DNA from: Antarctobacter heliothermus
GTDB lineage: Bacteria; Pseudomonadota; Alphaproteobacteria; Rhodobacterales; Rhodobacteraceae
DNA length: 33,927 bases
Reading direction: 5' to 3'
Assembly (NCBI RefSeq): GCF_900188425.1
Contig: NZ_FZON01000053.1
Coordinates: 1-33,927, forward strand
The first letter of the stretch is position 1; the number at the start of each line of letters is the position of its first letter. This document shows positions 9,211 to 28,827 of the stretch, in pieces. A program made the position numbers and the translations under genes. A model generated the notes under the pieces. The model saw only the letters and a program-made list of their open reading frames with translations. It was not told where the DNA came from and ran no database searches.

Positions 9211-9218
9211 GAACGCCC

Positions 9219-10610
9219 ATGTCCGATACCACGACCAACCTGGCTCTGCCTTACATCCTGGCCGCGCAGGCCCAGAAGCATGTCACGCACAATGAGGCGC
9301 TCCGGATCCTCGACGGGCTTGTCCAGCTCTCCGTTCTCGACCGCGATCTGGCCGCACCGCCAGCCAGCCCCGCCGATGGCGACCGCTATATTGCCCCCTC
9401 CGGTGCCACCGGCGATTGGTCCGGCTGGGATCTGAACGTCGCGCTCTGGACCGACGGGGTCTGGCTGCGCCTGCCGCCGCGCAGCGGCTGGCGCGCTTGG
9501 GTCGAGGACGAGGGGTTGCTGCTGGTTTGGGACGGATCGATATGGTCGGACATTCTGCCGTCAGAGTTGCAGAACCTTGACATGCTTGGGATCCGGGCCG
9601 CGGCCGACACGACAAACCGGCTTTCGGTCTCGGCCCCGGCCATTTTGCTCAGCCATGAAGGCGCCGGTCATCAGGTGAAGATCAACAAGGCCGCTGCGGG
9701 CAATACCGCATCGCTGCTTTACCAGACCGGGTTTTCCGGCCGGGCAGAGATGGGGCTGGCAGGATCAGATGATTTTGCCATCAAGGTCAGCCCGGATGGC
9801 AGCGCCTGGCTGGACGCCCTTGTCGTCAACCGCACAAGCGGCAGTGTGACCGGCGAGGCCGTCCAATCCGACGCGCTGGACGCAACCGCCGGGCGGCTCT
9901 TGCGTGTCGGTGGCTTCGGACTTGGCCTGGACGCAGGGCCCAATGTCGCGGATCTGGATACGCATGGTCTGGCCGGGTTCTTCTTTGGTTACGGCGGGGC
10001 CTCGGTGACGCCGCCGACAGGGGACAACCCGTTTCCCACCCTGAACGGCGCCTACGGGTTGATCACCGGCAATGGCACTTTGGGCGATGACAGCGGCTAC
10101 CTGTGGCAGATCGCCGTGCAATACGGCACGCTTTCTCCCCAACTCAAATTCCGCAACAAGGCAGGTGTCACCTGGGATGCCTGGCAGACCGTGGTTGCGA
10201 CGGACAATATCCTGGGCTCCGTCAGCCAGGCGGGTGGCGTGCCCACGGGAGCCATCATCGAACGCGGCAGCAACGCCAACGGCGACTACACCCGCTTTGC
10301 CGACGGCACGCAGATCTGCACGCGCCAGGGCCTCGTCGCCACCTTCGTTGACGCGGAACACTGCGCGGCAACCTGGACTTGCCCGGCGGCCTTCGCCGCG
10401 CCGCCCACAGCAGTCACGCTCACCCTCGACGGCGGCGCCTGGGGGGCGAGTGGTCCGGCCAGCGGTGTCGGGCGCGGGGATGTGCAACCGGTGGCAGGCA
10501 TCAACACAAACACGGCGCTCTCAGCGGAGGTCTGGGCCTCTGGCAGCGCGGTTTTTGTCTCCGGCGATACGGTCCCTTTGCTGGGCGTCGCTTTTGGCCG
10601 CTGGTTCTGA
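9219..10610 (+). CDS. DUF2793 / pyocin-knob tail fibre-like protein
   Basis: This 463-residue protein starts at ATG 9219, eight bases after the gp15-like stop. An in-frame upstream extension would lie inside gp15 and is rejected. The N-terminus (TTNLALPYILAAQAQKHVTHNEALRILD) is the DUF2793 signature of roseobacter prophages and GTA-linked proteins. Around residues 265-330 the pattern GYLWQIAVQYGTLSPQLKFRNK...TWDAWQTV resembles a pyocin knob, a receptor-binding fibre domain. The C-terminal ~130 residues look beta-rich. Its position after the tail tip gene fits a host-recognition fibre or capsid/tail decoration. The exact role is inferred. Confidence 0.8.
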   Translation: MSDTTTNLALPYILAAQAQKHVTHNEALRILDGLVQLSVLDRDLAAPPASPADGDRYIAPSGATGDWSGWDLNVALWTDGVWLRLPPRSGWRAWVEDEGLLLVWDGSIWSDILPSELQNLDMLGIRAAADTTNRLSVSAPAILLSHEGAGHQVKINKAAAGNTASLLYQTGFSGRAEMGLAGSDDFAIKVSPDGSAWLDALVVNRTSGSVTGEAVQSDALDATAGRLLRVGGFGLGLDAGPNVADLDTHGLAGFFFGYGGASVTPPTGDNPFPTLNGAYGLITGNGTLGDDSGYLWQIAVQYGTLSPQLKFRNKAGVTWDAWQTVVATDNILGSVSQAGGVPTGAIIERGSNANGDYTRFADGTQICTRQGLVATFVDAEHCAATWTCPAAFAAPPTAVTLTLDGGAWGASGPASGVGRGDVQPVAGINTNTALSAEVWASGSAVFVSGDTVPLLGVAFGRWF

Positions 10611-10623
10611 GGAGGAGCTTTCC

Positions 10624-10950
10624 ATGAACATCACTCTTGTGCCGCAAAGGCGGGACACACCGCTGGTCGCGGTCAAATCCGGCGATGTGCTTTGGCTCAA
10701 CGGCGAGGCCTTTGATTTTGGCCCACTGCAGGACGGCGATGCGTTGCCCGCGGATGCCATCGCGTCGGACCTCTTCGCGGGGCCGGTGACGCGCATCACT
10801 GGGATCCTGCAAATCTCCCTTGTCCTGCCCATCGGCGCGCATGCGCCTGAGGAGGCGAGGTTTCCGGTGCCGCTTGTGGACGTGCCGGATGGTGAGATTG
10901 CTCTGCCAAACTTCGAGGTGATTGCGGGTATTGATGAGGAGGCTTTGTGA
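10624..10950 (+). CDS. Small phage tail-associated protein, unknown
   Basis: This 108-residue protein has a good ribosome-binding site (GAGGAG seven to eight bases before ATG 10624). It lies 13 bases after the fibre gene and overlaps the next start. No motif is recognised. The sequence is acidic and beta-strand-like (VLWLNGEAFDFGPLQDGDALP, a hydrophobic ITGILQISLVLPI strand). Small proteins in this position, directly after a fibre gene, are often fibre assembly factors or tail-tip accessory proteins. That is a positional guess only. Confidence 0.6.
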   Translation: MNITLVPQRRDTPLVAVKSGDVLWLNGEAFDFGPLQDGDALPADAIASDLFAGPVTRITGILQISLVLPIGAHAPEEARFPVPLVDVPDGEIALPNFEVIAGIDEEAL

Positions 10951-11264
10951 TGGCCAATATTGATTTCTCAAAGGTGCAGACGACCGAAGCGCGGACGGCC
11001 CGCAAACATAAGGACCGTCGTGTTGCGCTAAAAGCCGAAGCCAGACGCCGCATCGCAGCGGTCTTTGACGACCGCACCCAGATGAACCTGGTCGGGGCGG
11101 CAATCGCAGGAGATCTCTCGCGCGCCGAGATGGTGGTGTTCCGTGCCTCTCGGCGATGGATCGCCGAAACGCTCGCGGCGTCGCGTGCCGCGGCATCGTC
11201 CGGTGCCGATCCGGAGTGGCCAGACGCCCCAACCGGACTCGCAGAACTGGTCGCCAGGTTTTGA
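10950..11264 (+). CDS. Small basic phage protein, unknown
   Basis: This 104-residue ORF has its ATG overlapping the previous TGA by one base and a GAGGAGG ribosome-binding site 10 bases upstream. The N-terminal half is strongly basic and helical (RTARKHKDRRVALKAEARRRI). The rest is mostly helical and Ala-rich. It is the last + strand gene of the phage module. It might be a tail assembly or fibre chaperone, or a cargo gene; no family was recognised. Confidence 0.55.
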   Translation: MANIDFSKVQTTEARTARKHKDRRVALKAEARRRIAAVFDDRTQMNLVGAAIAGDLSRAEMVVFRASRRWIAETLAASRAAASSGADPEWPDAPTGLAELVARF

Positions 11265-11580
11265 CAGACGCACGGGCCGCAAATCGCACGTCCTGAAGGT
11301 GCCGCGGTGGGGGACCGTGTTCTCGGCCTCAACCCACTGGGAAACGCCGGGCCGGAGGAATGGCCTGGAAGCACCGCATGCCTCGACAGCCCGCCGCACA
11401 TCCGGCCCGCCGGTTCCAGTTAACTGTGTCAAAAAGCGGTGGATCGAGTCCGATCCATGCCTGAAGTGTACCCCAACCTTTGCGGAAAGTCTTTTCCGGA
11501 AAGGGGCAACTTGTTGCACCCAAACTGCTGCTGCTACTGAACCTGCCAATCCCCGACAAGCTTCAGTTGATTACTCACCA
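11265..11580. other. Non-coding junction between prophage and BREX operon
   Basis: These 316 bases lie between two convergent transcription units. I see no gene, tRNA or complete insertion sequence. A weak hairpin (arms CGGAAA and TTTCCG, 11483-11498) and a short GCAAC/GTTGC pair (11506-11517) could act as poor terminators, but neither has a good T-tract. GC content falls from left to right, consistent with a junction between phage-like and BREX-like DNA. No attachment-site repeat of the tRNA fragment at 29100 was found here. Confidence 0.5.
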
Positions 11581-13668
11581 TCAGGCTCCCTCACGCACGT
11601 AAGTCACATAAAAACCCTTGATCGTCCGGTGATCCTGCAGCCGGTCTCCAAGAGAAAACCCATCTTTTCTGATGGGCGCCTGGAAAATGTCCAGCCCACG
11701 ATCAAGGACGATCTTCCAGCCTGTGTCGGTGGTTATATCGCGCGCATGGCCGGTACCGGTACCGTCGAAGACCCAAGTGAACTCAATACCGGTGCCTGCA
11801 CAGGCGTCAGCTATGGAGTCGAGAAGCTCGCGCTGCTTGGCCACGTTGCCGTCATCTGGCCCTGTTACCAGATGAATACTGACCTGGTCTTCTGGCGGCT
11901 TGCGCTGGATGACCATTTCGACAAATTCCATCATATTCTTGATCTGGTAGAAGTAGCGGACATAAGGGTCGGTCACTACGATCTTGGATGCACCGACGAT
12001 GTAGGGGCCAAATACCCTGTCGTAGCTGATACCTCTGCGGTTTTCAGCGAAAACATGATGTCCTTCAGCGAGCGCTGCTACTTTCGGTTTGGGGCGGCTG
12101 TTTTCGGCAGCAACGGATGCCTCATGGAGGGTCGAGTCCTCAGTCTGGTTGTCTTCGTTCTCTTCACCCTGTTCCTGTTCCTTCGGATCCAGCGCCGGTT
12201 TCAGATGATAGAATTGCGGATATTCTTCTTCTTCTACCGTGGTCACACGCCGCTTTTCGCCATCAGAGCCGGTGTAGTAGAAATCCACCTCAGGATAGGT
12301 CGCATCGATACGTGCCAATTGGTCCTTTACGCGCTTTCGGCTTTCAATTGCCAGGCGCAACAGCTCTTCGACATCCTCTGCGGTCTCGCCACCGTTCGGG
12401 AAGATCAACTTCAAGAACCCGGACATCGTTTTGTAAATGGCGTCACGATCGCGGGTCGATATCTTCTCACTGATCTTGAAATACTGGTCAGGTCGATGTG
12501 AGAAATCCTCCGAGCGCAGATGGCGCAGAATTTCCGCCAAATAATCCACGATAAAGCCATAGCCCTTGGTGAACATCTCGCCCCGGATGACGTCGACTTC
12601 CCAACCAGGAAGGTAGGAATGCAGACGGTCGATGAAAGCTGAGTCATGGAACTGTGACGGCAGCGCCTCGAAGAGATCACTGTTTTTCAGCATGAAGGGC
12701 ACGTTGTGGTCGGTATTGCCGACAAAGGCAAAGCTGGCCTCGGCCCCCATGGGATTGACCCCGCGCGAGAAGGTCTTGTTGGCCATGTAATTTTTCATGA
12801 TGTCAACGAGGGCCTTGTTGGCCTTCTTTTCCCGTCCCGCAAACTCGTCGAAAGCAACGACATCCCAATACCCCACCAGACCAATCCGGCCGTTGGAATT
12901 GTTGACAAAGAGCTTTGGGATCGAGACCTCGCCGCCGGAGATCAGCTGCCCGTGCGGTGAGAACTCCGAATAAATATGAGACTTGCCGGTGCCTTTGGGG
13001 CCCAGTTCGATGATGTTGTAGTTGCGCTCGACGAAGGGGATGAGGCGCATGAGCTGCAGCAGCTTGGCGCGCCGACCAAATGCCTCCGGATTGAAGCCAA
13101 TGCTCTGCATCAGAAGGTCAATCCAATCATCGGTGTCAAAGTTCGACCGGGCTACGCGAAAAGCTTCGTAATCGACCTTGGCGATCTGGATTGGTTTGAT
13201 TGTCTCAAGGATCCACGGTGAAGTCCGGGCGTCTTCGGCAAACTCATACTGGACGTCAGCGATGCACCAAACGCCGGTCACCAGCAGCTTTGGATGGGCC
13301 TTGATGGTGCCGCTGTCGACAGCCACCTTCTTGATCCCAAGGTTGTCAAAGGTTGCCTCGTAGCTGTCGGTTTTTTCGTTCAGCGACACGCTGATCTGGT
13401 CAATAACCTTGTAACGGCCCTTTTCCTTGATTGTAGACTGGATCAGCCCCGCCTCACTCCGGTGGACATAATGCTTGCGCAGGATTTCCTTGACGGTCTC
13501 GATCCCCGTACCGATCGAGGCCTCATCGTCGGTGGCACAATACTGGCCCAAGAGGTACTCGAGCACATAAGTTGGAACGATCGCATTGCCTTTGACGGCC
13601 TTGACCAGGTCTTTACGCACCACGAAGCCCGCGAAATGTTCGTTGATCCTGTCGTCGAGATCACTCAT
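11581..13668 (-). CDS. brxL: BREX AAA+ ATPase BrxL with MIT_C-like C-terminus
   Basis: This is a 695-residue protein. ATG 13668 is preferred over an in-frame TTG at 13683 because AGGAG lies at the right distance and the family starts near MSDLDDRINEHF. The Walker A motif GPKGTGKSH is at about residues 222-230, a Walker B-like VVAFDEFAG is at about 268-276, and a sensor-1-like GNTDHN follows. An acidic linker (EQEQGEENEDNQTED) leads to a C-terminal domain from about residue 545. This domain resembles MITD1-C (MIT_C): SYDRVFGPYI, VTDPYVRYFYQIKNMMEF and DTGWKIVLDRGLDIF. BrxL acts late in BREX defence as a DNA-associated ATPase and is needed for phage restriction but not for methylation in the systems studied. 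It is the last gene of the operon, 11 bases after pglZ. Confidence 0.9.
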   Translation of the reverse strand: MSDLDDRINEHFAGFVVRKDLVKAVKGNAIVPTYVLEYLLGQYCATDDEASIGTGIETVKEILRKHYVHRSEAGLIQSTIKEKGRYKVIDQISVSLNEKTDSYEATFDNLGIKKVAVDSGTIKAHPKLLVTGVWCIADVQYEFAEDARTSPWILETIKPIQIAKVDYEAFRVARSNFDTDDWIDLLMQSIGFNPEAFGRRAKLLQLMRLIPFVERNYNIIELGPKGTGKSHIYSEFSPHGQLISGGEVSIPKLFVNNSNGRIGLVGYWDVVAFDEFAGREKKANKALVDIMKNYMANKTFSRGVNPMGAEASFAFVGNTDHNVPFMLKNSDLFEALPSQFHDSAFIDRLHSYLPGWEVDVIRGEMFTKGYGFIVDYLAEILRHLRSEDFSHRPDQYFKISEKISTRDRDAIYKTMSGFLKLIFPNGGETAEDVEELLRLAIESRKRVKDQLARIDATYPEVDFYYTGSDGEKRRVTTVEEEEYPQFYHLKPALDPKEQEQGEENEDNQTEDSTLHEASVAAENSRPKPKVAALAEGHHVFAENRRGISYDRVFGPYIVGASKIVVTDPYVRYFYQIKNMMEFVEMVIQRKPPEDQVSIHLVTGPDDGNVAKQRELLDSIADACAGTGIEFTWVFDGTGTGHARDITTDTGWKIVLDRGLDIFQAPIRKDGFSLGDRLQDHRTIKGFYVTYVREGA

Positions 13669-13679
13669 GGGCCCGCTCC

Positions 13680-16181
13680 TCAAAAGTCAAAATCGGTTGT
13701 AATGCCACGTTTAAGCTGGAAGCGATGGCTGGTGTAATCCTGATAGTGGCTGGTCTTTCCGACGCGCTCGCGCAGCTTCAGGAAAACGTCCTGATTGTTG
13801 AACTTGTCCGTGTCACGCGACAGCAGGAATTTCCGAGGCATTTCGCGTTCGCGCGCACTTTCGGACGCGAAGTCAAACTGCAGGACGTGTTCGTCAGAGA
13901 TCAGGTTGCCATCAGCTGCGTAAATCCCCGCGATCAATTCCCTGGCCTGCATCTTTTCGGACACCGGTTGTGCTTGGTAGAAGACGACTGCAGTCTGCCC
14001 CGATGTGATCTGGCTTCGCCCGGAGACGATAATCTGCACCTCAACCTGGTTCACATCCGCATCGCGCTGCTTGCCAACGCGGATCACCGGGATGACGATC
14101 TCCTGTAGGGACGCCCCGCCGTGGACAAAGCGGCTGCCTGCGCCCTTCACCCTCAGACGATTTATCGAATTTGGGATCAAGACATCCAGGTCACCCGCCA
14201 GACCGAGGTTGGCAGAGCTGAACTTCTTCATGCCTGCAGTCGTGGCCAGTCCCCGACCGATCACGAAACGACGGTTTCGCATGAGGATTTCATCGCCTTG
14301 GGGATCTGCGATGGCAAAGTCGCTCTCGCCGAGGGCCCGATGCTGGTAGAGAAATCCGTGATCTGCCGTGATCAAGATGTTCGAAAAGTTCGCCGAAGTA
14401 AGCTTTCGGACCAGTTTCGTGAGGTCCTCGATCGCATCTTCCGTGGCCTTTGGCAGTTGGTCTTCCGTCTGCAGCTTGTCGCCAATTGCGTCGATATGGT
14501 TGTGGTAGATGTAAATCACGTCGTTGTCTCGGAAGAGCTCCTTGCCTTCGTCGACCCGCATGTTCTTAACATCTTCGGCTTTCAAGGCCTTGGCACGGTC
14601 CCCGGCGCGGCCAGTTGAGAGCAGCTTTTCGCGAGCGGTCAGGCCTTGGGTGCTTTCGCCACCTGACAACACCGCACCGCTGCCTTCTGTGGAAAGTGTC
14701 AGCGCCTTGTTTGGCAAGAGGGCGGCCATGCCGAGCTGGGTGTAACTCGGCAAGGCACTGATCATGGGTTTCAGTTCAGCGTCAAACCGGTTCAATGCGC
14801 GAATGCGGCGCAGGCATTCCTCCGCGACCTCAAATCGGAGGGCATCCGACACAATGACCGCGACCTTCTGGTCCTTGCGGCGGAACTCAGCAGCCTGCTC
14901 TGTGTAGAAGGCGCTTTGGCGCGGATAGCCAGGGATTGCCCAATCCGTCATGCCGCTCACCTGGTCCTGCCAAGCATCGTTCAACTTCAGCAGGAAGCTA
15001 TTGGTGTATCGGTTTTCCACTGCGTCATAGAGCTCTGCCAGCAAAGAGGCATGCCCACTTTTCTGCATGTGGTAGATGAACTTGCGGTAAAGCTGATCGA
15101 GCTTGTACCAGCTGGTCACATACCGCTTAACGCCCTCGGCTGGGCTGGTCATGCCCAGATTGGCCTCGGCGAGCGCCTGCTGGAACTCGGTGGCAAACCC
15201 CATCGCTTGGTAGATATCCTCATAAGTGGAGTACCAATGGCTCTGGCGACGTTCACGCACCCACTTCAGAACCTCGGATGCACTGACGGTCTGGGTCGAC
15301 ATCGCGTGGACCATCTGGCGGATGATGTGTCGGTCGATCTCTTCAAAATGGTCGACCGGCATCAACATCCGGAAATCGCGCTGGGACAGATCTTCAAGTA
15401 TCTTCAGCAGGCCCTGATACCGCGTGGCCAGCGTCTCGAATGCCGCCTCCCAGTGACGGTTGTTCTTCCAGCGCCTGAACACCAGCAGCGCCTCGGCATT
15501 CAGCTTGCCATCCTCGCCCAAAGCCCGGAAATAGGCCGACTGGAAAAGGGCAATGGCGAAGTCCTCGAAATCTGGTTCGGATGGCTGATAGCCATAGGCA
15601 TTGCCGACCTGCTTCCAGAAAACTTCGGTCAGCCCTGCGCGTGTCATCAATCGCATTGCGTCATCGCGGCCCTCCGCCAGATCCCCCAGCAGCGCCTCGA
15701 TCACCGTATCCAGGCCGCCTTCGGCACCCGCGCAGACGGCCAACATCCGCAGGCGGACCTGCGATTGGGTATCCGACGCCTGCAACAGCCGCTTCAGCTC
15801 GGCCACGCGGGCTTTGGAGCGGTAGAACTCCAAATGCTCGCGCACGACGCTCTCGAACTGTGGCGGCAGGCCCAGTTCGCCCAACCAGATTCCGGCCTGA
15901 TCCGCCTTGAACACGGCGGTGGCCAGCTGCAAGTCCAGCAACCAGTTCTCGGCATTGGGAGGCTCGGGCCCGTCACCAAACACCAGAAACCGCGCCTTGG
16001 GGTCCTGCCGTATCATTCGGTGCTTCAGGCCGAACTCGTTGTTGGCGATTTCGACCTTGGTCACACCGGGCAGATCCACGGCGTCAAACTCACCGCGCAT
16101 GTCGCGGGCAGTGTCGTACCAAAAGACGATCCGGTGATCGTCAAAGAGCCGCCGCAGGCTGGCCGTGATGCGATCCGTCAT
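13680..16181 (-). CDS. pglZ: BREX alkaline-phosphatase-superfamily protein PglZ
   Basis: This is an 833-residue protein. The N-terminal half is helical (starting MTDRITASLRRLF). The C-terminal half carries the alkaline phosphatase-like PglZ domain: VIVSDALRFEVAEEC at about residues 440-455, LPSYTQLGMAALLP with the likely nucleophile Thr, a YIYHNHIDAIGD segment, and ITADHGFLY at about 605-613 with metal-binding Asp-His. Known PglZ proteins are required for both BREX methylation and restriction, and some have metal-dependent nuclease or phosphodiesterase activity. Its start overlaps the pglX stop by one base. All expected metal-site motifs seem intact. Confidence 0.94.
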   Translation of the reverse strand: MTDRITASLRRLFDDHRIVFWYDTARDMRGEFDAVDLPGVTKVEIANNEFGLKHRMIRQDPKARFLVFGDGPEPPNAENWLLDLQLATAVFKADQAGIWLGELGLPPQFESVVREHLEFYRSKARVAELKRLLQASDTQSQVRLRMLAVCAGAEGGLDTVIEALLGDLAEGRDDAMRLMTRAGLTEVFWKQVGNAYGYQPSEPDFEDFAIALFQSAYFRALGEDGKLNAEALLVFRRWKNNRHWEAAFETLATRYQGLLKILEDLSQRDFRMLMPVDHFEEIDRHIIRQMVHAMSTQTVSASEVLKWVRERRQSHWYSTYEDIYQAMGFATEFQQALAEANLGMTSPAEGVKRYVTSWYKLDQLYRKFIYHMQKSGHASLLAELYDAVENRYTNSFLLKLNDAWQDQVSGMTDWAIPGYPRQSAFYTEQAAEFRRKDQKVAVIVSDALRFEVAEECLRRIRALNRFDAELKPMISALPSYTQLGMAALLPNKALTLSTEGSGAVLSGGESTQGLTAREKLLSTGRAGDRAKALKAEDVKNMRVDEGKELFRDNDVIYIYHNHIDAIGDKLQTEDQLPKATEDAIEDLTKLVRKLTSANFSNILITADHGFLYQHRALGESDFAIADPQGDEILMRNRRFVIGRGLATTAGMKKFSSANLGLAGDLDVLIPNSINRLRVKGAGSRFVHGGASLQEIVIPVIRVGKQRDADVNQVEVQIIVSGRSQITSGQTAVVFYQAQPVSEKMQARELIAGIYAADGNLISDEHVLQFDFASESAREREMPRKFLLSRDTDKFNNQDVFLKLRERVGKTSHYQDYTSHRFQLKRGITTDFDF

Positions 16182-19100
16182 CAGCTGACCCCGACGATCT
16201 TCTTCAACGCGGCGCCGAACTTCGGGTAGTTCGCCTTCACCCCATCATCCAGATCGATCTCGATCTTGGCCTGCGCCAGCGGGAAGACCACCTCGCGCTC
16301 CCATTCGTTCAGCTCGTCGATCTGCTTGACCACCACGGCCACGTCCTTCAGCGCCTTGGTGCGCTGGCTCTGGCTGGCGCTGGGGTCGTCGGACAGTTTT
16401 TCGAGCCGCCCGCGTTCGGCTTCCAGCTTGCTGATGAACTCGCGCAGATAGTCGTTGAGGATGACCGACACGGTGTCGGCCCGGTAGCGGTGCATGTAGA
16501 TCAGGGCGTTGAACGTGCCCTTGGGGCTGGAGAACATCCAATAGATCGGGCGCTTCTTGTAGCGCTTCACATGGTCGGTATAGAAATCGCGTGTGAAATA
16601 CTTGCGGATGTCCTTGCCAAGCGCGTCTTCGATATAGCGCAGGTTCTCGCGGAAATGCGCCTCGCCGAAGGTGGTGCGCAGGAGCAGGCGGAAGCGGTCT
16701 GTGATGTCGTCGGGGAACCAGTCGGCGTCGAGCACGGGGATGACGTTGTCTTCGTCCGGCATGAATTGCGGTTCGGGGATGCGGGCGAGGTAGTCTGCCA
16801 GCGTCTCGCCCTGATTGGCGAGGATCAGGCTGGGGGTGTCGAGGCTGTAGCGGCCGAACATGCAGCCGACGGCGTAGGAGAGGAACTCGGCCATGGTATC
16901 GGCGCGCAGGCGGGCCTCGTTCGCCGCTGCGTCGTTCTTGATGCCATAGCGATAGGCGGGGTTGCAGGTGAGGGTGATCTCGTTCAGCGGCACGTCGGGG
17001 GTCAGCTCGTCTTGCAGGCCATAGGCGTCGATGAAGATGCGGTTGTTCTCTTCCTCTAACGTAAGCATCTCGTCCGTCATGCCCTGCCAATGGGTGCGCA
17101 GGGTGGTGTAGGTGCCCTCAAGCGTGTCGGCGCGATGGTCGGGTTGGTGCAGCGGAAGCGTGGTGAAATCCCATGAGGTTTCGTAGGCGTCCCAGTCGGA
17201 TTTGGCGAGTTGGACAGTCTGCACTTCTTGAACTGCCAGATCGGCGAAAGCTTCAGGTTTAGCAAAGGGGACACGAGCCAAATCGCCTACTTGGAAGGTG
17301 GAAGTCGGGTTCACGCATCGCATAAACTGAGGCATTAGGCTGCTACAAAGAAGGCTTAGGACAGGGCTCAAATTATCTGGTTGATGGGGAACACCGGATG
17401 ATCCCTTTACGTCAAAGAGGAAGCCTTTAGGAGAAAAGCGCGCCGCGAATGAACTTGTTGATATATCAGACCAAGTTGCGCATTCGAGGAACATTTTATC
17501 CAAGTTCTGAATATAGCGTGACCAGTGTTTTCCCTTGTTTCGATAGGTTGCGAAGTCCTTAACTTCTTGACCATCGTTTTGCCAATTGATGATGTGGCTT
17601 TGGTTCCCATACCATTTTCTGTGACCGCCACCTTTGTTGTAGGGAAACCATTTTTCATCGCGAGTCGCAGCATCTTTGATGCTCGATGCGTCAAAGCAGA
17701 TTTCCTCTGAACCGACCTCAAACCATTGTTTTAGAAAACGGTCATTGTCACCTGTGTTAAGTCCGACCGCTGGTTTGAAAACATCTTTAATGGCATCCAG
17801 ATTACTGAAACATGATCTGAAATTATCAGAAATCCAATGCGCGATAGGCTGACCTTCAACAGCTTCGAAAGTCGTTGAGCTGGCGTGATTTATCGCTACT
17901 TCACCTGTAACTGCGAGTCTCAGTTGCTCAAACTTAGCAGCCTCGGAGCGGCCGTCGCGAAGATCAATGAAAGAGCCTTCGTATTCGCGCGATCCTTCTC
18001 GACAAAGAACGAACGCTGTCGTTGATACCACTTCTCCTCCAATTGAATCAAAAGCACCCGAACCGAGGTGCGCCATGGACCTAATGGGAAGAGTAGCGAC
18101 GACCTTTTCTCTGAGCTTTTGATGTCGGGACAAGAACATCCAGCTCTGCATCGTAATCATGCTGATGAAGCCATTGCGGCGCGACAATTCAGCTGATCTT
18201 TCGATGAACATAGCAAAAAGGTCTGATTTTGAATCTGGGTAACTTTCCTTTGCGAATGCATCAAGTTTCGCATTCATCCCTTTCCCGCCCATATACGGTG
18301 GGTTGGCCACCACCACATGATACTTCGGCGACAGCGCCTCGGCCATGCGCAGCACGGCCACCACGCGCGCCTGCACGTCCTTCAACAGGAGATCGCCGCC
18401 GAAATCCCGCGCCTCCACCACCCGCAACGCCTCTGCCGGGTCGCGCAGTTTTGGCACGATCAGCGAGCCGAAGTTCTTGGCCTGCTCGAACTGTCCCAGC
18501 GTCTCGCGCAGCGCGTCCGTAAACAGATCCTTGCCCACCACGGCGGCCACGTCCTGCATCTCGGCATCCGTAAAACTCACGTTCTGCAACACGCAGATGT
18601 CGGGCTTTGCCTCCATCCGCAGGAACCGCCGCCGCCCCAGCTTGGCCGCCGCCTTCATCGCCAGCGCAAAGGCCGCCAGCGCGCCCGCGCGGTCGTCAAT
18701 CTCCATCCCTGTGAGGTTGTGCGTCAGGATCAGCGCGGGGATCTCGGCCGCGTCATAGCCCTCTTCCTCGTAGATGGCGTAGAGCAGGTCAAAGGCATAT
18801 GTCAGCATGTGCCCTGAGCCTGCGGCGGGATCGCAGATGCGGATATCTTCGGGGCGGGAGATGCGCAGAAAGTCCGTCTCGGGTTCTTCCGGCGCGATGT
18901 AGTAGTCCATCCGCTCGGCCAGACGGCTTTGGGGCCGGTTCAGCAGCCAGAGCCGCCCCAGCGAGTTCTCCACCAGGTAGCGGACGATCCAGTGCGGGGT
19001 GAAAAGCTGCGTCGCGGCGGGGATGTTCTCGGCCGTGATCTTCTGGTTCTTCTTGAGGCCCGCAAAGACCTGATCCTTCTTCTCGGAGATATAGAACTGG

Positions 19101-19687
19101 TAGAGCCAGCCGATGATCTCGACGTCCTGACAGGCCTCCTCGGTCATGACCTTGCGCAACTCAGCCAGAATGGAGGTCTGCGAGAGCAGATCCTCGGGCA
19201 TCAGCAGCTCGGTGTAATCGTCGATCTGCTCGAAGAGGAACGGCATCGGCCCGTGCCACTGGTTGCAGGTGCGGACCAGCAGTTGGCGGTAAGCCTCGGC
19301 CTGCGGATCGGACGATGGGGTGCGGCCGTCCAGAAGCGCGGCGATGCCCGGCGGCGCGCCCTCGGGCAGGTTGCCCGCCATCGCCTCGGCCAGAAGCTCG
19401 GGCCTTGTCGCGCCATCAGCGGGGGAGACGATGCGCGTGTTGGTGTAACCGTTGGCATCCATGAAGCGCAGCGCAGTGAACCGGTTGAACCAGGTATAGG
19501 CGACCTGTTCGATGACCTGCCGCTTGCCGTCCTTGCGGATCGCAGATTCCAGTTCCTTGATCGCCTTGGTGTGTTCGCGTCGCGCCGGGCTGCCCTCGGC
19601 CAGGACCATGTCAATCTTCGAGGTCACCTGATCGATCAGCAGGTTGCGGGCGGCCTGGGCGAATTTCTTGAGCGCGTTGGTATCCAT
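16181..19687 (-). CDS. pglX: BREX adenine-specific DNA methyltransferase PglX
   Basis: This is an 1168-residue N6-adenine methyltransferase. The SAM-binding motif DPAAGSGHM is at about residue 284-292 and the catalytic NPPYMGGKG at about 460. PglX recognises a short asymmetric site and marks host DNA for BREX. The gene is uninterrupted, and its start overlaps the brxC stop (TGATG). Composition is strikingly uneven. Hand counts give 41/60 GC at both 16681-16740 and 18361-18420, 25/60 at 17761-17820 and 28/60 at 17881-17940. The poor-GC block, about 17215-18270 (residues about 472-824), lies just after NPPY and covers the expected target-recognition region. That is a sign of specificity exchange. 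Confidence 0.95.
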   Translation of the reverse strand: MDTNALKKFAQAARNLLIDQVTSKIDMVLAEGSPARREHTKAIKELESAIRKDGKRQVIEQVAYTWFNRFTALRFMDANGYTNTRIVSPADGATRPELLAEAMAGNLPEGAPPGIAALLDGRTPSSDPQAEAYRQLLVRTCNQWHGPMPFLFEQIDDYTELLMPEDLLSQTSILAELRKVMTEEACQDVEIIGWLYQFYISEKKDQVFAGLKKNQKITAENIPAATQLFTPHWIVRYLVENSLGRLWLLNRPQSRLAERMDYYIAPEEPETDFLRISRPEDIRICDPAAGSGHMLTYAFDLLYAIYEEEGYDAAEIPALILTHNLTGMEIDDRAGALAAFALAMKAAAKLGRRRFLRMEAKPDICVLQNVSFTDAEMQDVAAVVGKDLFTDALRETLGQFEQAKNFGSLIVPKLRDPAEALRVVEARDFGGDLLLKDVQARVVAVLRMAEALSPKYHVVVANPPYMGGKGMNAKLDAFAKESYPDSKSDLFAMFIERSAELSRRNGFISMITMQSWMFLSRHQKLREKVVATLPIRSMAHLGSGAFDSIGGEVVSTTAFVLCREGSREYEGSFIDLRDGRSEAAKFEQLRLAVTGEVAINHASSTTFEAVEGQPIAHWISDNFRSCFSNLDAIKDVFKPAVGLNTGDNDRFLKQWFEVGSEEICFDASSIKDAATRDEKWFPYNKGGGHRKWYGNQSHIINWQNDGQEVKDFATYRNKGKHWSRYIQNLDKMFLECATWSDISTSSFAARFSPKGFLFDVKGSSGVPHQPDNLSPVLSLLCSSLMPQFMRCVNPTSTFQVGDLARVPFAKPEAFADLAVQEVQTVQLAKSDWDAYETSWDFTTLPLHQPDHRADTLEGTYTTLRTHWQGMTDEMLTLEEENNRIFIDAYGLQDELTPDVPLNEITLTCNPAYRYGIKNDAAANEARLRADTMAEFLSYAVGCMFGRYSLDTPSLILANQGETLADYLARIPEPQFMPDEDNVIPVLDADWFPDDITDRFRLLLRTTFGEAHFRENLRYIEDALGKDIRKYFTRDFYTDHVKRYKKRPIYWMFSSPKGTFNALIYMHRYRADTVSVILNDYLREFISKLEAERGRLEKLSDDPSASQSQRTKALKDVAVVVKQIDELNEWEREVVFPLAQAKIEIDLDDGVKANYPKFGAALKKIVGVS

Positions 19688-22600
19688 CAGACGATCACTT
19701 TCTTGCCCGCGCGGATTTCGACCAGCAGGGTCTGTTTCATTTGCTCGACGTATTGCTCAACATCGGCCTCTTCGGTGAGGAATTGTTTCGTGAAGACCAC
19801 CTTGAGCTCCGAAGCGTTGACGTAGGTGGGCGTGACTGGCTGGATCGGTCGTTCGCTCATGCCCGGGATCGGCTGCATTGGGGTTGTCGGCTTGCCCAAC
19901 CGTTCGACCTCGGCCAGAGTGCGCGGGAGCAGGTCCAGCCTCGCCCCATTGGCACGATCGCGCAGGATCGGGATCATCTTGACCCCATCCAGACCCGTCT
20001 TGTGGCTGTCGATACTGCGTTTGATACGCTCTTGGTCGTCTTGGGCCAGCGCCTGGAACTCGGGTGTTTGGGCAACCTTGTCGGCGCATTCGTTCACTGC
20101 CGCAATAACGGCCTTTCGTTCCTCCAGCACTGTCAGTTCCACCCGGTCCTTGAGCGTGTAAAGATCGGATTTCAGGGATTGGATTGCGGTGCCCTTGTAG
20201 CAGGCAGGATCGGCCAGCGCCTTGGAAATCGCATCGCCCGCAGCAGCATCAACATAAGAAATATTGGCCTCCTGATCGCGCAGGAACTCGCGTGCGTCGT
20301 CATAGATTTCCTTCTGCGCGCCGCCCATGAAACTGCGGACCTTGTCCAGCACCTCTTCTTTGGCATCCAGAAGGTCGTCTTCCTGCTGGGGGGGCTCAGT
20401 TATGTACCAGGTGGCTGGTTTGCCGACCAAGGCAGCGATCCTGGTGGCCAAAGGCTCAAGCGCGGCCAGGAACGGATATTGGAATTTCTGCGCCGTAAGT
20501 CGGGTCAGCTCATCTGCCAGAAGCTTGGTGCTGTCGGCCCATTCGGCGCCAATCGTTCTGGCATCGGTCCCATCCGAGGGAAGATCGAACAGTTCCTTGT
20601 AGAGCTCTTTCGCCTTTCGGATCTGGGCCGAGGTGAACTCGGTCTGCGGCGTCAGGAGGATATTGGCCAGCGCATGGCTGTTGTTCAGATTACGCGCCAG
20701 ATCGGCTCGCTCCAGAACAGTGCCATCGGAGCGCGCTTCAAGTTTGCCTTTACCGGACAAGCTGGCTGCCAGACAAAGCACAGCGGTCGTTGGCCAGCCA
20801 TAGGGTTTTCCACCGAAACGCTCGGTCAGGTATTTGACCGAAACCTTCACGCCGTTTCTGGCTTGGCCCTGGACGTAGTTCAGCACATCCTGCTCAGCTT
20901 CGGTCAGACCTTCGCCGTTGTTGCCGAAAAGACCGCTTTCCGGGGAGGCCGCCTTGATGATGTCGGCCTCGACGTAACTGACCCCGCGCAACATCGGGAG
21001 GTTCACATGGACCTTGTCGACCAGCCCCTGAAATCCTTTGACGATCCGTTCCTGCGGTTCTTCACCTCCGATATCCAACTCATCACCACGGACAAACATA
21101 CGTGCGTCGGCCACCAGCTTGCGCAGGCGCAGTTCGAGGTCCTTGTAGCGACGGCTGTTCTGATCGCCTTTTTCGGCTACGATCCGATCCCGACCGGGCT
21201 GCTGAGATCCAGCACGCGCCTGGCGAATGAACTTGTCCGTCTGCTTGAAGAGCGTCAGGTCCCGGATGAATCTCACGTCGGGCTGGAGCACGACCGCCAG
21301 TTCTTCGCGGCTCATGTTGCGCATACGAACCGCTTCCGGCGCTGCTACATCATCGTTGAACGGGCTGATCACATTGATCGCCAGTTCATACTCGCGGCCC
21401 AATAGGTGGTCATCGAGCTTGCGACTGAAACTATACTCATGGCCCGTGGTCATATGCTTTATCTTGCGGTGGCGCAGGATCGTGTCAAAGGCCAGCGCTT
21501 CCATTTCCTTGGAAAGTTCAGACGGATCGACATCGAGCCCTTTGATTTCGGCTTCGACGTCCTTTTCCTCATTGGTCAGGAACTCGTAGACCTCTCCGTT
21601 GCGCTGGATGAGCGTGTTGCGCTCCAGAAACGACAGCGCTTCCTCGATCTTGCGCCTCTGCTTGGCTTGATCGGTGTCGAACTCTGACAGTAAAAGCACG
21701 CTGATGTTACGCACCGTCGGCTTAAATTCCTTGACGTATTTGACCAGGAACAGCGCCTTCAAAACCCGGACGGCAAAGGGGTCGATGTCCTGAATTTCCT
21801 TTTCGGCGATCTGGATCGATTGCTGAGCTGCAGATTTGAGGGCGGTCCGGATGCCTTCGAACATAAGATCAAAGGTAGCGAGCCCGCCAACCGGCTGATC
21901 AGCCAACTTCTTGGCCACCTCTTGAAACACGCCCAGCATGGAACGTTCCCCAATCGAGCTGTGCTTGCCCTCAAAGGCATTGTGTTGCGATAGCGACGTG
22001 ATCGCCATCTGGAACAGCATGTATTGGTAGGGAGGGAACGGATAGCTGGACACAAACTGCTCGCGGCCATCGAAATTCTTCAGCTTGATCGAGCCGTCGG
22101 TGAAGTCGAACAAAGTCTTGAGGTTGTTTTCTTCGCGGTCGTGCAAATTGCCCAAGGTAATCTGTCCGGCATCGGTCTTCGACAGCAAGCGTCGCTGTAT
22201 CACCTCGGCCACGTCCGCAGAGTTCAGTGGCATTTTGACTCCAAAGCGCGCCATGATTTTCGAGAAATCCTGAGACTGAAACGCCTTCCCGTCTCCGATG
22301 ATCGCTTCCATGTCTTGCTGTGAGGTTACGATGACCCATGCCTGACCTTTGCACTTCGTGTTGAGGCTTTCGGCAATCGTCTGCAAGTTGGTCATCAGCT
22401 TAACGTTTTCAGCGATGTACTGGCCGACCTCGTCCACGAAGAAGTTCAGGCGAAACTTGGAACCCTGTGTGTCGATCCAAGCCTTTACCTTGTTGGCAAA
22501 ATCCTCGATCGAAACCCGTGTGTCACTGCGATACTGACCAAGAATATCCTGGGCGTCGGACGGATCGCCGTCCGTAACCGAGGCAAAGGCAGCAGCGATG

Positions 22601-23208
22601 TTTCTGCGCTCCAACGCGGCTTGTTCGCGTCCCCGCTCCCAAGGTTTGCCCGCCGCTGCTTTATAAGCCGACGCGAAGGCCGCAAGCTGGCCGCGCTCAT
22701 CAAGATCTCGTTCAAATTGAGCGATGTGCGGCAGCTTGCCATAGTAGCCGCAAGCCTCATCAAAGACCTTCTGGAAAACTGACAGCAGAGCATCGACGTC
22801 CGTCTTGGAGATGACGTCTGCCTTCTGGTCGATGTTGAACAGGATCGATTTCGAGGGAACTGAAATCGCTTTGCGCAAGGCGCCGGCCAGCATAGGGTCA
22901 TCGGTCAGTTTTTCGGCAAAGATATCAAATGCGCGCACTCCATCGACTTCGCGATTTTCCATCAACAGCGCGAGCATTTTCAGCAGATGCGATTTGCCCG
23001 ACCCGAAAAACCCGGAAATCCAAACGCCATTGGCGGTATCGTAATTGTTGTAAGCCTCAAGGAAGGTCTCCAGGCGCCGACCGATCTCGTCTGTGATGAC
23101 ATACTCGTCGAGCTCGATCCGCAGGCTTGCTTCATCGTCGGCCTTGATCACGCCATCGATCGGGCGGTCAACGGGCTTGGCGAAAATTGTTCTCAGAGCA
23201 GTGGTCAT
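19687..23208 (-). CDS. brxC: BREX large P-loop ATPase BrxC
   Basis: This is an 1173-residue protein of the BrxC/PglY type. The N-terminus (LRTIFAKPVDRPIDGVIKAD) and the Walker A GFFGSGKS at residues 66-73 in GVWISGFFGSGKSHLLKML are diagnostic. FFVDEVGQYI, encoded near 22420, is a Walker B-like segment. The rest is a long helical region without other recognised domains. BrxC is a core ATPase needed for BREX methylation and defence. It starts four bases after brxB. GC is close to 50-52% in hand-counted lines (19741-19800: 30/60; 22321-22380: 31/60), well below the neighbouring ends of pglX. Confidence 0.94.
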   Translation of the reverse strand: MTTALRTIFAKPVDRPIDGVIKADDEASLRIELDEYVITDEIGRRLETFLEAYNNYDTANGVWISGFFGSGKSHLLKMLALLMENREVDGVRAFDIFAEKLTDDPMLAGALRKAISVPSKSILFNIDQKADVISKTDVDALLSVFQKVFDEACGYYGKLPHIAQFERDLDERGQLAAFASAYKAAAGKPWERGREQAALERRNIAAAFASVTDGDPSDAQDILGQYRSDTRVSIEDFANKVKAWIDTQGSKFRLNFFVDEVGQYIAENVKLMTNLQTIAESLNTKCKGQAWVIVTSQQDMEAIIGDGKAFQSQDFSKIMARFGVKMPLNSADVAEVIQRRLLSKTDAGQITLGNLHDREENNLKTLFDFTDGSIKLKNFDGREQFVSSYPFPPYQYMLFQMAITSLSQHNAFEGKHSSIGERSMLGVFQEVAKKLADQPVGGLATFDLMFEGIRTALKSAAQQSIQIAEKEIQDIDPFAVRVLKALFLVKYVKEFKPTVRNISVLLLSEFDTDQAKQRRKIEEALSFLERNTLIQRNGEVYEFLTNEEKDVEAEIKGLDVDPSELSKEMEALAFDTILRHRKIKHMTTGHEYSFSRKLDDHLLGREYELAINVISPFNDDVAAPEAVRMRNMSREELAVVLQPDVRFIRDLTLFKQTDKFIRQARAGSQQPGRDRIVAEKGDQNSRRYKDLELRLRKLVADARMFVRGDELDIGGEEPQERIVKGFQGLVDKVHVNLPMLRGVSYVEADIIKAASPESGLFGNNGEGLTEAEQDVLNYVQGQARNGVKVSVKYLTERFGGKPYGWPTTAVLCLAASLSGKGKLEARSDGTVLERADLARNLNNSHALANILLTPQTEFTSAQIRKAKELYKELFDLPSDGTDARTIGAEWADSTKLLADELTRLTAQKFQYPFLAALEPLATRIAALVGKPATWYITEPPQQEDDLLDAKEEVLDKVRSFMGGAQKEIYDDAREFLRDQEANISYVDAAAGDAISKALADPACYKGTAIQSLKSDLYTLKDRVELTVLEERKAVIAAVNECADKVAQTPEFQALAQDDQERIKRSIDSHKTGLDGVKMIPILRDRANGARLDLLPRTLAEVERLGKPTTPMQPIPGMSERPIQPVTPTYVNASELKVVFTKQFLTEEADVEQYVEQMKQTLLVEIRAGKKVIV

Positions 23209-23212
23209 CGGG

Positions 23213-23815
23213 TCAGACCTCGTAGTTCAGAATGTTGAAAGCGCGGTAATATTTGTCATCGTGAAGCAGACTGAAGAGGTCCAGCGATCCACCCGTGGCC
23301 GTGGAATGAGTGTAGCTGCCTGGAAAGAACAGAACCGTGGGCCTGTCCTTCGCTGTGCTTTGAAGGTTGTTCAGCACATTATGGGAACGAATGTAGGGAT
23401 AGACCTCGCCCACGCCTGAAAGGAAAATTACGTCGTGGGGCTGACTGTCGATGGCCCCGGCGATCTTGGGGATCAGGTGTTCATGGACATCCAAGACGCC
23501 TTGCAGCAGCTCTCGCAGCTCGGATTTCTCCATGCCTGGTTCAGCGCTCAGCACGTCTTCAAGGATCCCGCGTTCTTCAAGAATGCCCAGCGAAAGCTCG
23601 TACAGGCTGAGGTCGAGAACCTTCACGCCAGAATGACCTATTCGCTCGATCAAGTCGGCGCGGTCCTCCGTCATCGAGAGGCCTTCGCTGGCTGGGAAGG
23701 GGCAGATAAAGAACGGCACCTCATTCCCAAGGCCTTGTTTGGTCAGAAACCGCTCGCTGGTGATCACACGATACAAGTGCTCGGCGCGCTCTTTGCGGGT
23801 CAGCTGTTCGCTCAC
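23213..23815 (-). CDS. brxB: BREX protein BrxB (DUF1788)
   Basis: This 200-residue DUF1788 protein is the usual length. Characteristic segments are FFICPFPASEGLSM, KVLDLSLYELSLGIL, DVIFLSGVGEVYPYIRSHNVLNNLQ and VLFFPGSY near the end. BrxB is required for BREX function in model systems; its biochemical role is not settled, though it associates with other core subunits. It overlaps brxA by four bases and sits four bases before brxC, so production of these subunits is probably coupled. Confidence 0.93.
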   Translation of the reverse strand: MSEQLTRKERAEHLYRVITSERFLTKQGLGNEVPFFICPFPASEGLSMTEDRADLIERIGHSGVKVLDLSLYELSLGILEERGILEDVLSAEPGMEKSELRELLQGVLDVHEHLIPKIAGAIDSQPHDVIFLSGVGEVYPYIRSHNVLNNLQSTAKDRPTVLFFPGSYTHSTATGGSLDLFSLLHDDKYYRAFNILNYEV

Positions 23816-24453
23816 GGTTTGCCCCCCTCGGCCATAACTCCTGGGAAGAACGCTAGGTCAGATGGCGTGTTTGCTTCAATCAAAGCCCGAAGCGAGGTCG
23901 ACAAATAGGTGGATTGGATCCGACGATCCTCAGAAATCACCCCGGCTTCGCGCATGATCTTGAAGGCAACCTGACGCAACCGAACACGAGTCGCATCCGC
24001 AGTCGAAGCCAGAGTGTCATCCCACTCAGCCTTCTGCTCTATGAAAAGTTCAAAGCTTTCTATAGGGATCTCCAACTGATAGGCCAGATAACGATCTTGC
24101 ACGACTTCCACGGCAAATTCACGGACAAGTCGGTATGCCCGGCATATTGAAAGCCAAAGAAGCAGACGCTGCTCTTGCCGATCTGCGGTGTCCACCAAGA
24201 ACTGCAATTCCTCATCGCTCAGCGTTTCAAGGCGATTGGTAATCTCGCGTAGCACCCGGCGTTTGGACTTTTCTTTTGGCAGTGAAGTCAGCCCTTCAGA
24301 TTGGGCCAGTGCGATGGTCTCAATCCAATTTGAGGTCTTCAAATAGCTGGCGGCAAGGTCAATGCTTTCGTTCAGAAACAGTCCGCCAGATGTGAATGAC
24401 ATTTTGTAAGGCTGGTCCGCCCCAATGTCTCCCGATCCTCTTGCCAATGTCAT
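23812..24453 (-). CDS. brxA: BREX protein BrxA (DUF1819)
   Basis: This 213-residue DUF1819 protein has the family signature YKMSFTSGGLFLNESIDLA near residues 16-34 and a helical body. BrxA homologues are small DNA-binding proteins resembling the RNA-binding antitermination fold, recalled from a published structure. The first ~15 residues (MTLARGSGDIGADQP) look like an extra N-terminal extension. The start overlaps the brxR stop by four bases (ATGA), which supports ATG 24453 as the translated start. Confidence 0.92.
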   Translation of the reverse strand: MTLARGSGDIGADQPYKMSFTSGGLFLNESIDLAASYLKTSNWIETIALAQSEGLTSLPKEKSKRRVLREITNRLETLSDEELQFLVDTADRQEQRLLLWLSICRAYRLVREFAVEVVQDRYLAYQLEIPIESFELFIEQKAEWDDTLASTADATRVRLRQVAFKIMREAGVISEDRRIQSTYLSTSLRALIEANTPSDLAFFPGVMAEGGKP

Positions 24454-25301
24454 CCAATGACCTCTTGGCGATTGAGCAAGACGATCTGCTGGTGATGTGG
24501 TTCGCGTGCTTCAGGATCCGTGTCGAGCCCCAGACGCTTCAGGGCGTAATAGAGCAGCGCACGTCTAACCGGAATCTTCCCTATGCCATCTTGCATGCCA
24601 TAGTCGAGTGCGATGACTTTCTTCTGGGTTTCGGACAGTTCAGGATGAGGGCAAATTTCAAGAGTAACGTGATCGTGCCACGCCGCATCCGCTGCGTCAG
24701 TGATTTCACTTGCTGCGACGCCTCGCGTCTTGATCATCCGCGAGAGCAGGAAGTCCTTGAATATTTCATCCGTCAGGCAGAACGCCCGGCTGTGCCAACG
24801 AAATCCGTCGAACGCGATAGCATGCGGGGCAATCCAGCGCCAGCGCGGCTCTGGGTTCGAAAGCGATTGGTATTTCACCTCTATCGCTTCAGCCTGCCGA
24901 ATGGCGCCAACAACCGAACGTAGAGTTTCCGGCTTTACTCCACGGGCGGGGGCCGGTGCAGCGTCATACGACGGAAGATCGATAATCCAGCAGTCTTCGC
25001 GATCGAGGATGTCTTCTCTCACCGATCTTAGTTGTGCGAGGTAGCGCGCCGCGTCTGGCGCTTGAAACCACGGCTCAAACTGAGGGCCTCGGACATACGT
25101 CCTAGCGCTCTTGTCGTAGACCATGTTGTTCGGCGCGAGCGCGATATAGCGGTTCAGGTCGGATGACGCCTGGTTCACCGACAGACCGAACTGCTCCATC
25201 AAGTCGCTCCGGTTCACATGGCTCTCCCAAAACAGTCGAAACTCAATGAACTCGAGTCGTTGCTCGACGCCCCAGCGCAGTTTCGACCTATTCCCTTCCA
25301 A
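24450..25301 (-). CDS. brxR: BREX-associated WYL transcription regulator BrxR
   Basis: This is a 283-residue protein read from TTG 25301, which sits five bases after AGGAGG. GTG 25304 is an alternative, and a far-upstream TTG at 25349 lacks a ribosome-binding site. The N-terminus holds a winged helix-turn-helix (QRLEFIEFRLFWESHVNRSDLMEQFGLSVNQASSDLNRY). A WYL-type ligand-sensing domain follows around PRWRWIAPHAIAFDGFRWHSRAFC, then a C-terminal dimerisation-like segment. BrxR proteins bind inverted repeats upstream of BREX operons, in known cases as repressors, and are thought to sense a ligand of phage or nucleotide origin. It is the first gene of the operon, with candidate promoter and operator just upstream. 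Confidence 0.88.
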   Translation of the reverse strand: MEGNRSKLRWGVEQRLEFIEFRLFWESHVNRSDLMEQFGLSVNQASSDLNRYIALAPNNMVYDKSARTYVRGPQFEPWFQAPDAARYLAQLRSVREDILDREDCWIIDLPSYDAAPAPARGVKPETLRSVVGAIRQAEAIEVKYQSLSNPEPRWRWIAPHAIAFDGFRWHSRAFCLTDEIFKDFLLSRMIKTRGVAASEITDAADAAWHDHVTLEICPHPELSETQKKVIALDYGMQDGIGKIPVRRALLYYALKRLGLDTDPEAREPHHQQIVLLNRQEVIG

Positions 25302-25334
25302 CACGCCCTCCTGACATCTCTGTCCACACCAAAA

Positions 25335-25364
25335 AATATGCGCGCACAATTTCTGGACTGTCTA
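25335..25364 (-). promoter_or_regulatory. Candidate promoter of the BREX operon
   Basis: On the minus strand, TAGACA (25364-25359, 5/6 match to the -35 consensus) is followed after 18 bases by CATATT (25340-25335, 4/6 match to -10). The brxR start codon is about 33 bases downstream of the -10. No other good hexamer pair was seen in the 90 bases between brxR and the sbcB fragment. Confidence 0.45.
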
Positions 25365-28476: not shown

Positions 28477-28766
28477 CACAGGTAGTCTCCAAGGTCGTAA
28501 CCCTGCGGAGCGTCTTTCGTCTTGGCGTCCGGGCCAGGCGACGTATCATCCATCAGGACCGAGAGCGACACACGCAGCGCCGCCGCAATCTTAGCAAGTG
28601 TCGTCAGCCTGGCATCACGCTTCCCCGTCTCGATCAGTGACAATGCCGGAGCACTGATCCCGGTGAGGCGAGCGAGCTGGTCGAGGTTGAGGCTCTGCTC
28701 TGCACGGATCGCCCTGATGCGCCGCCCGACATCGGCAAGAAGCTTCCGCTCGTTTTCGATTGACAT
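28476..28766 (-). CDS. hipB: HipB-type antitoxin and autorepressor
   Basis: This 96-residue XRE helix-turn-helix protein has its HTH at about residues 24-60 (LDQLARLTGISAPALSLIETGKRDARLTTLAKIAAAL). The C-terminal tail (QGYDLGDYL) is short and probably flexible. HipB proteins bind palindromic operators and hold HipA inactive. The ribosome-binding site AAGGAG lies about eight bases before ATG 28766 and abuts operator 1, so binding would occlude it. It is the first gene of the hipB-hipA-helical gene operon. Confidence 0.93.
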   Translation of the reverse strand: MSIENERKLLADVGRRIRAIRAEQSLNLDQLARLTGISAPALSLIETGKRDARLTTLAKIAAALRVSLSVLMDDTSPGPDAKTKDAPQGYDLGDYL

Positions 28767-28821: not shown

Positions 28822-28827
28822 GAGTTC

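Follow-up and report, generated by a model that had tools for sequence, protein, structure and literature searches.

The pglX gene of a type 1 BREX island appears to be a hot spot at which its specificity block is exchanged between alleles, new blocks entering through homologous shoulders on either side, a reading to which we give a probability of about 0.88. The island lies in the window, by which we mean the whole stretch of DNA analysed here, a single contig of 33,927 bp from a draft genome of 5.17 Mb in 159 contigs, whose host belongs to the same family as Roseibaca and, by inference, to the Rhodobacterales. Block and flanks of the gene differ in ancestry, a divergent tract interrupts an island otherwise almost identical to that of Roseibaca ekhonensis, and a halo of likeness across genera lies on both shoulders of the block. 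We infer that homologous recombination is the mechanism, that selection for new specificities is the driver and that the DNA site has changed.

The BREX type 1 gene set is complete in the window, with brxA, brxB, brxC, pglX, pglZ and brxL lying end to end on the minus strand (PADLOC; Table 1). Residues 48-1164 of PglX can be aligned with the solved structures of Salmonella PglX and E. coli BrxX, and the AlphaFold model of the protein (mean pLDDT 83.7, pTM 0.70) matches six chains with TM 0.63-0.84, among them 9ewz (TM 0.84) and 8q56 (TM 0.70). Near full-length homology and fold, together with the NPPY catalytic motif present as NPPYMGGKG, place it in the PglX/BrxX family, whose members are expected to methylate an asymmetric 6-bp site. 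An IMG/VR contig of equal length (UViG_2619619037_000008) is 100% identical over pglX.

Table 1. Features of the BREX island in the window (residues are those of PglX unless another protein is named).
Feature	Position	Strand	Basis
brxL	11581..13683	-	PADLOC, Pfam
pglZ	13680..16181	-	PADLOC, Pfam PF08665
Divergent tract, window vs. Roseibaca, ~4.5 kb	15045..19581	.	Maximum-likelihood boundaries; 4,537 bp
pglX (brxX), 1168 aa, BREX type 1 adenine methyltransferase and specificity factor	16181..19687	-	PADLOC PglX E=0, residues 1-1166; PDB 8c45/8q56, 8zek, 9ewz by sequence and AlphaFold-model fold
C-side shoulder, residues ~829-1168	16181..17204	-	Chance-corrected 4-fold identity 0.48 (residues 835-944), 0.53 (945-1054), 0.38 (1055-1164); 0.24 in pglZ 1-280 (10 islands)
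Putatively exchanged block, residues ~472-828	17205..18274	-	GC/GC3; blastn gap vs. Roseibaca L028; reciprocal tree conflict (residues 472-824)
Block, second part: target-recognition domain (TRD), residues ~609-810	17258..17863	-	Alignment to E. coli BrxX, TRD 651-837
Block, first part: methyltransferase domain after NPPYMGGKG, residues ~472-608	17864..18274	-	Alignment to solved PglX/BrxX
N-side shoulder, residues ~117-471, GC3-rich, homogenised across genera	18275..19339	-	Chance-corrected 4-fold identity towards the block 0.24 (residues 117-232), 0.53 (233-348), 0.61 (349-464) (10 islands)
brxC	19687..23208	-	PADLOC
brxB	23213..23815	-	PADLOC, Pfam PF08747
brxA	23812..24453	-	PADLOC

The first-pass annotation had reported a sharp fall in GC content inside pglX from hand counts of 25/60, 28/60, 41/60 and 41/60. 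All four counts are exact, sliding windows and GC3 change points agree with the limits that it gave, which are good to ~30 bp, and the dip is far beyond chance. GC content is 46.6% at 17216-18274 against 62.9% in the remainder of pglX, and GC3 is 158/353 in the block against 696/805 in the flanks (Fisher p = 5e-47); the edges are sharp, the best-supported change points falling at codons 462 and 829 (window 18301 and 17200). The block all but coincides with the GC minimum of the contig: only one of 32,869 windows of 1,059 bp is lower, the minimum lies at 17225-18283, and the lowest value away from the block (windows ending before 17000 or starting after 18500) is 50.8%. As the pglX flanks are richer than the other BREX genes (52-58%), the dip sits between two humps within the island; in the phage-tail part of the contig GC reaches 65.7%, higher even than in those flanks. 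The annotation had equated the low-GC block with the TRD. The TRD does lie inside it, as placed by the published limits of the E. coli BrxX domain (PMC11842806), but the second half of the methyltransferase domain lies inside it too, so that the exchanged unit, judged by alignment, would be larger than the TRD alone.

Comparison was made with the near-identical island of Roseibaca ekhonensis (sister locus L028, taken as genome G551). Across 10001-24680 the two are 99-100% identical outside the divergent tract, with 4 mismatches in 5,044 sites at 10001-15044 and 33 in 5,075 at 19606-24680. In the core of the tract, at 17205-18272, a global alignment gives 447 mismatches at 954 compared sites (~53% identical) and blastn leaves the whole stretch unaligned; PglX shares 30% amino-acid identity in the block, against 96 and 91% in the flanks. 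The two hosts are of different genera (codes g1 and g180, taking G551 as Roseibaca) and their rpoB-region DNA is 76-80% identical, against 99-100% in the island, so that the island itself must have been shared recently. The tract may be composite, since mismatch rates to its left and right are unequal and 15709-16009 inside it holds no mismatch at all. By nearest neighbours in 19 segments, the shoulders of both alleles, that of the window and that of Roseibaca, appear to be mosaics, and mismatches in the tract (88 vs. 81) have no clear strong/weak bias.

Trees of block and flanks place the window in different company. The nearest block relatives are Novosphingobium album (L024), an alphaproteobacterial MAG (L025) and Modicisalibacter luteus of the Halomonadaceae (L026), with 83, 83 and 78% amino-acid identity to the window in the block and 83/74, 77/71 and 73/66% in the flanks. 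Among 24 sequences the flank tree groups the window with Roseibaca (99), whilst the block tree groups it with these three (100). In AU tests of the same sequences, which were hand-chosen and whose grouping was set with the distances already in view, the flanks reject the grouping of the block (p ~3e-6; 3.5e-6) and the block (residues 472-824) rejects the grouping of the flanks (p = 3e-72), so that the phylogeny of the block alone, proposed as a check by the annotation, comes out in favour of a swap. Distances in 78 sequences agree among flank segments (rho 0.73-0.84) and not between flank and block (-0.21 to 0.04). The two block parts, methyltransferase and TRD, do not correlate over all pairs of the 78 sequences (rho 0.00), though the nearest block relatives share both parts, the window with L024, L025 and L026 included; clustering of the TRD part at 60% identity yields 61 groups among these sequences, singletons counted. 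In 39 alpha-like sequences the outer gene ends agree better (N1-C2 0.72) than N1 and N2 (0.31), a comparison in which the inner shoulder N2 is more conserved and hence noisier. The sequence comparisons show a different ancestry of the block from the rest of pglX and strongly support its replacement by recombination; the claim of the annotation that a new recognition module had entered a resident methyltransferase is upheld by the topology conflict and the near-identical sister island, not by GC. pglX displays the discordant TRD and flank trees, and the near-identical flanks around a very different TRD, by which allelic TRD exchange is recognised.

The immediate source of the block is not among these relatives. 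At 4-fold sites in the block, the window is identical to L024, L025 and L026 at 36% (47/130), 40% (51/127) and 27% (32/117), against ~25% expected, which argues that they are not immediate donors. No near-identical donor block was found: none closer occurred in plasmids (all 288 matching records below 60% identity) or in phages with a whole-PglX query (9 records, all below 60%), and in viral contigs the block query recovered the window's own contig and one 41% match. With whole PglX as query, the viral contigs again yielded that of the window, plus five at 57-73% that fall to 31-41% identity in the block.

The first-pass annotation had reasoned from the dip itself. Recent AT-rich foreign DNA, not yet ameliorated, would fit both the low GC3 of the block in this gene and a block ancestry unlike that of the flanks. 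We consider this unlikely, and as a sufficient explanation of the dip it is largely refuted. Of 87 relatives, most of which have a very different block, 86 show a lower GC3 in the block than in the flanks; the difference is below 0.10 in 6 of 77 (three Komagataeibacter, L086, L079 and L085), a set that omits the window's own copy, duplicate records, the distant C93 homologue, partial frames and second pglX copies, and mean block GC3 is lower in each of five clades. The block kin L024, L025 and L026, although 4-fold sites in their blocks have largely turned over (27-40% identical), keep a block GC3 of 0.46-0.52 beside flanks of 0.67-0.81, and columns conserved above 0.9 have a GC3 of 0.465 in the block (14 columns) against 0.76-0.77 in the flanks. 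Conservation-dependent codon use was rejected as the cause of the dip: the GC3 step is nearly independent of amino-acid conservation, and the dip is much alike in variable and conserved columns. Being general among relatives, low block GC3 cannot show a swap of the window's allele, and we rejected the dip as swap evidence; in such genes a GC dip, alone, is no sign of recent foreign DNA. The annotation had set against its own swap a pattern of low GC in all relatives with no topology conflict, of which the low GC is found almost throughout and the topology conflict is strong. That conflict also refutes, unless the trees are wrong, the idea that the block evolves fast in place under diversifying selection, without exchange. 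ConSurf does rank the TRD as the most variable part of BrxX (PMC11842806), yet rapid change in place sits badly with a block ~53% identical to that of Roseibaca between kilobases of 99-100% identity, and with 78-83% amino-acid identity of the same block to distant taxa; we regard it as hardly credible.

Recurrent exchange is also suggested by the shoulders. Their likeness was measured as identity, corrected for base composition, at 4-fold sites of codons that agree in the first two bases. First estimates came from 44 alpha-like sequences selected for a pglX N flank like that of the window, which biased them towards alike shoulders, and the analysis was therefore repeated on 10 islands of 9 genera (two from one genus, g24) chosen by brxC, not pglX: 10 of the 14 genomes that matched brxC were used, that of the window included, leaving out a near-identical island (G551), one at which the contig ends (G609) and two at 34-36% identity (G631 and G400), whilst L155, with a short pglX frame, contributes no C-shoulder data. 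In these 10 islands, identity is 0.12, 0.13 and 0.19 in brxC segments and 0.17 in PglX residues 1-116, climbs through the N-side shoulder, drops to 0.03 and 0.02 in the two parts of the block, is high again in the C-side shoulder (Table 1), and returns to 0.24, 0.16 and 0.13 in pglZ and 0.13 and 0.10 in brxL. Jackknife values over genomes are 0.548 ± 0.038 (inner shoulders), 0.146 ± 0.042 (brxC), 0.120 ± 0.032 (brxL) and 0.021 ± 0.021 (block). The shoulder exceeds brxC in 43 of 45 pairs and rpoB of the same genomes (0.255) likewise in 43 of 45. The shoulders of Rhodobacterales pglX thus appear, on this measure, to form a recombination halo across genera.

In a wider set arranged by clade and chosen by pglX similarity, the halo varies between clades. 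Inner shoulders score 0.48-0.61 (brxC 0.19) within the Rhodobacterales, 0.35-0.46 (brxC 0.11) between Rhodobacterales and Hyphomicrobiales, and 0.26-0.41 (brxC 0.09) between Rhodobacterales and other alphaproteobacterial orders; among the Hyphomicrobiales themselves (9 pairs) there is no clear halo, with shoulders of 0.29-0.47 and brxC at 0.33. It is weak in Gammaproteobacteria (0.20-0.29 vs. brxC 0.15), and pairs of Rhodobacterales with Gammaproteobacteria score 0.07-0.24 against 0.06 in brxC, with the signal on the C side. Shoulder GC3 rises in a hump of similar distribution: 0.83-0.86 against 0.68-0.71 in brxC for Rhodobacterales, 0.73-0.79 against 0.64-0.67 for other alphas and little or none elsewhere (L014 is missing from one of the shoulder data sets).

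A codon-usage or RNA-level constraint on the shoulders could produce such likeness without recombination, and would account for the raised shoulder GC3 and for the modest signal, up to 0.24, that remains on the C side of alpha-by-non-alpha pairs. However, the measure is already corrected for base composition, and a constraint built into the gene is argued against by the variation of the halo with clade, that small C-side remainder apart: 450 random alpha-by-non-alpha pairs (as many were drawn from the pairs within the non-alphas, each sample from all such pairs) score only 0.04-0.12 on the N side, against 0.08-0.24 on the C side, and pairs within Thermodesulfobacteriota (0.15-0.26 vs. brxC 0.19) and Actinomycetota (6 pairs, 0.04-0.19 vs. 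brxC 0.12) are nearly flat. A similarly conserved stretch of brxL (88% at the amino-acid level) reaches just 0.13. Identical runs of at least 40 bp occur in the N shoulder in 32 of 45 pairs and in the C shoulder in 24 (44 of the 45 pairs being cross-genus), against 1 to 3 of 45 in stretches of brxC, brxL and pglZ of like length, a contrast weakened by rpoB, in which 20 of 45 pairs have such runs, over a longer gene. We therefore think constraint improbable as the source of the halo. Less probable again is programmed movement within one genome, by a shufflon, a silent cassette or repeats. pglX is subject to phase variation in lactobacilli, and a Levilactobacillus plasmid (L130) carries pglX with a tyrosine recombinase and an inverted second pglX; here, however, the single DNA match to pglX in the draft genome (159 contigs) is the gene itself, and the sole further homologue is a distant methyltransferase on another contig (G000:C93:11430-14159; L002-L004, L113), 24-38% identical by piece in an open frame of 1150 aa. 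The gene content from brxA to brxL includes no recombinase, and the block edges bear no repeats, with only short imperfect two-copy pairs elsewhere in pglX: members of 3 of the 8 such families (16-30 nt long, 77-94% alike) lie some way off on opposite sides of the block, as do those of one inverted pair (22 nt, 77%), an arrangement that looks like chance. With neither edge repeats nor a second DNA copy, domain movement of this kind is not supported.

The evidence points instead to recurrent block exchange by homologous recombination through shared shoulders. The block, comprising the second methyltransferase half and the TRD, exists in many very different versions; incoming DNA would pair by homology with the conserved DNA flanking the block, and the resident block would be replaced with ~1-2 kb of shoulder carried along on each side. 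Repeated across genera, such exchange would homogenise the shoulders whilst distant BREX genes kept their own history, and one or more such events would have replaced ~4.5 kb in the window or in its Roseibaca counterpart. A new specificity would give its host an advantage where phages bear the old methylation or are free of the old site. BREX may thus retarget by trading ready-made recognition blocks across genera via conserved shoulders, and the natural chimaeras, with similar shoulders and many blocks, could be used to map recognition rules in laboratory strains.

A close known parallel is the Type I HsdS protein of Helicobacter pylori, in which TRD homology groups are reassorted by recombination, probably in conserved flanks (PMC3077401, PMC3983042); PglX differs in that its specificity part is fused to the methyltransferase, half of the methyltransferase domain belongs to the exchanged unit, and exchange seems to reach across genera, probably across orders too. 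In domain movement (DoMo), recognition domains likewise shift as modules, but this is attributed to TRD-flanking repeats (PMC3077401), which the pglX block edges lack. PglX shares family, fold and a variable TRD with the E. coli HS and Salmonella proteins (9ewz, 8q56), whose specificity has been altered by engineering (PMC11842806, PMC11341690), and the divergence of pglX between E. coli and Salmonella fits variable TRDs (PMC9009780). The portions of these BREX accounts consulted describe neither natural cross-genus exchange nor homogenised shoulders. More widely, TRD exchange is described for Type I and Type IIG specificity proteins, and TRD variability and engineering for PglX; a description of cross-genus pglX exchange with homogenised shoulders was not found in the open-licence PMC text covered.

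Much more tentatively, and we think doubtfully, the halo may sustain itself across genera in Rhodobacterales, and more weakly with other Alphaproteobacteria, with gene transfer agents (GTAs) as the main vehicle and GC-biased gene conversion behind the GC3 pattern. If so, shoulders of ~1 kb would stay alike as landing pads for any new specificity block, and each incoming block would renew the likeness; GTAs, present in the group, would bring ~4.5-kb fragments by allelic replacement; and raised shoulder GC3 would be the footprint of conversion, with the low GC3 of the block that of DNA never converted. GC rises with recombination in bacterial GC-biased gene conversion as well (PMC4450053), but the pglX hump stands on both shoulders of a non-homologous hole, and the link is suggestive only. 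RcGTA carries fragments of ~4.5 kb, integrated by allelic replacement (PMC9690577), and RcGTA-like genes are well conserved in Rhodobacterales (PMC9836097); GTA_TIM genes occur in 10 of 10 genomes tested, and the single measured tract, which is perhaps composite, is 4,537 bp. A GTA is a possible vehicle, though GTA_TIM also occurs in the phage-like tail module beside this BREX island, so that its presence is no proof of a working GTA, and phages, plasmids or transformation would serve too.

The neighbourhood of the island adds several observations. The GTA-like phage tail module (tape measure, DUF2460, baseplate hub, NlpC/P60, GTA_TIM protein and DUF2793) occupies 1-10610 and abuts the BREX island; left of 10 kb it is mosaic relative to Roseibaca, at 80-100% identity in 400-bp steps. 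In the island common to Roseibaca, a WYL-domain protein (24450-25349) adjoins brxA and a HipA-like kinase lies at 27172-28479; a ~1.1 kb insert between the WYL gene and the next gene in Roseibaca (L111) is absent from the window (~25410). The alignment with Roseibaca stops near 29.1 kb; beyond it a Hint-domain protein and a tyrosine integrase are encoded (region 28800-33609). A search for tRNA genes found none in the window. Where one Roseibaca contig ends, a further BREX island is represented in part, by brxA, brxB and the first portion of brxC (G394:C187:127-3249; L112). Tandem pglX copies lie between brxC and pglZ at 3632-7684 and 9361-12942 of L151 (reverse strand), and also in G038: the first L151 copy is 85% identical to the window over residues 1-399 and has an extra segment in its methyltransferase part, and its neighbour is 66% identical overall. 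In another genus (G606:C39, ~40235-56562) BREX and a GTA_TIM gene likewise converge, no more than ~4 kb apart; the adjoining of BREX and GTA-like tail genes may recur.
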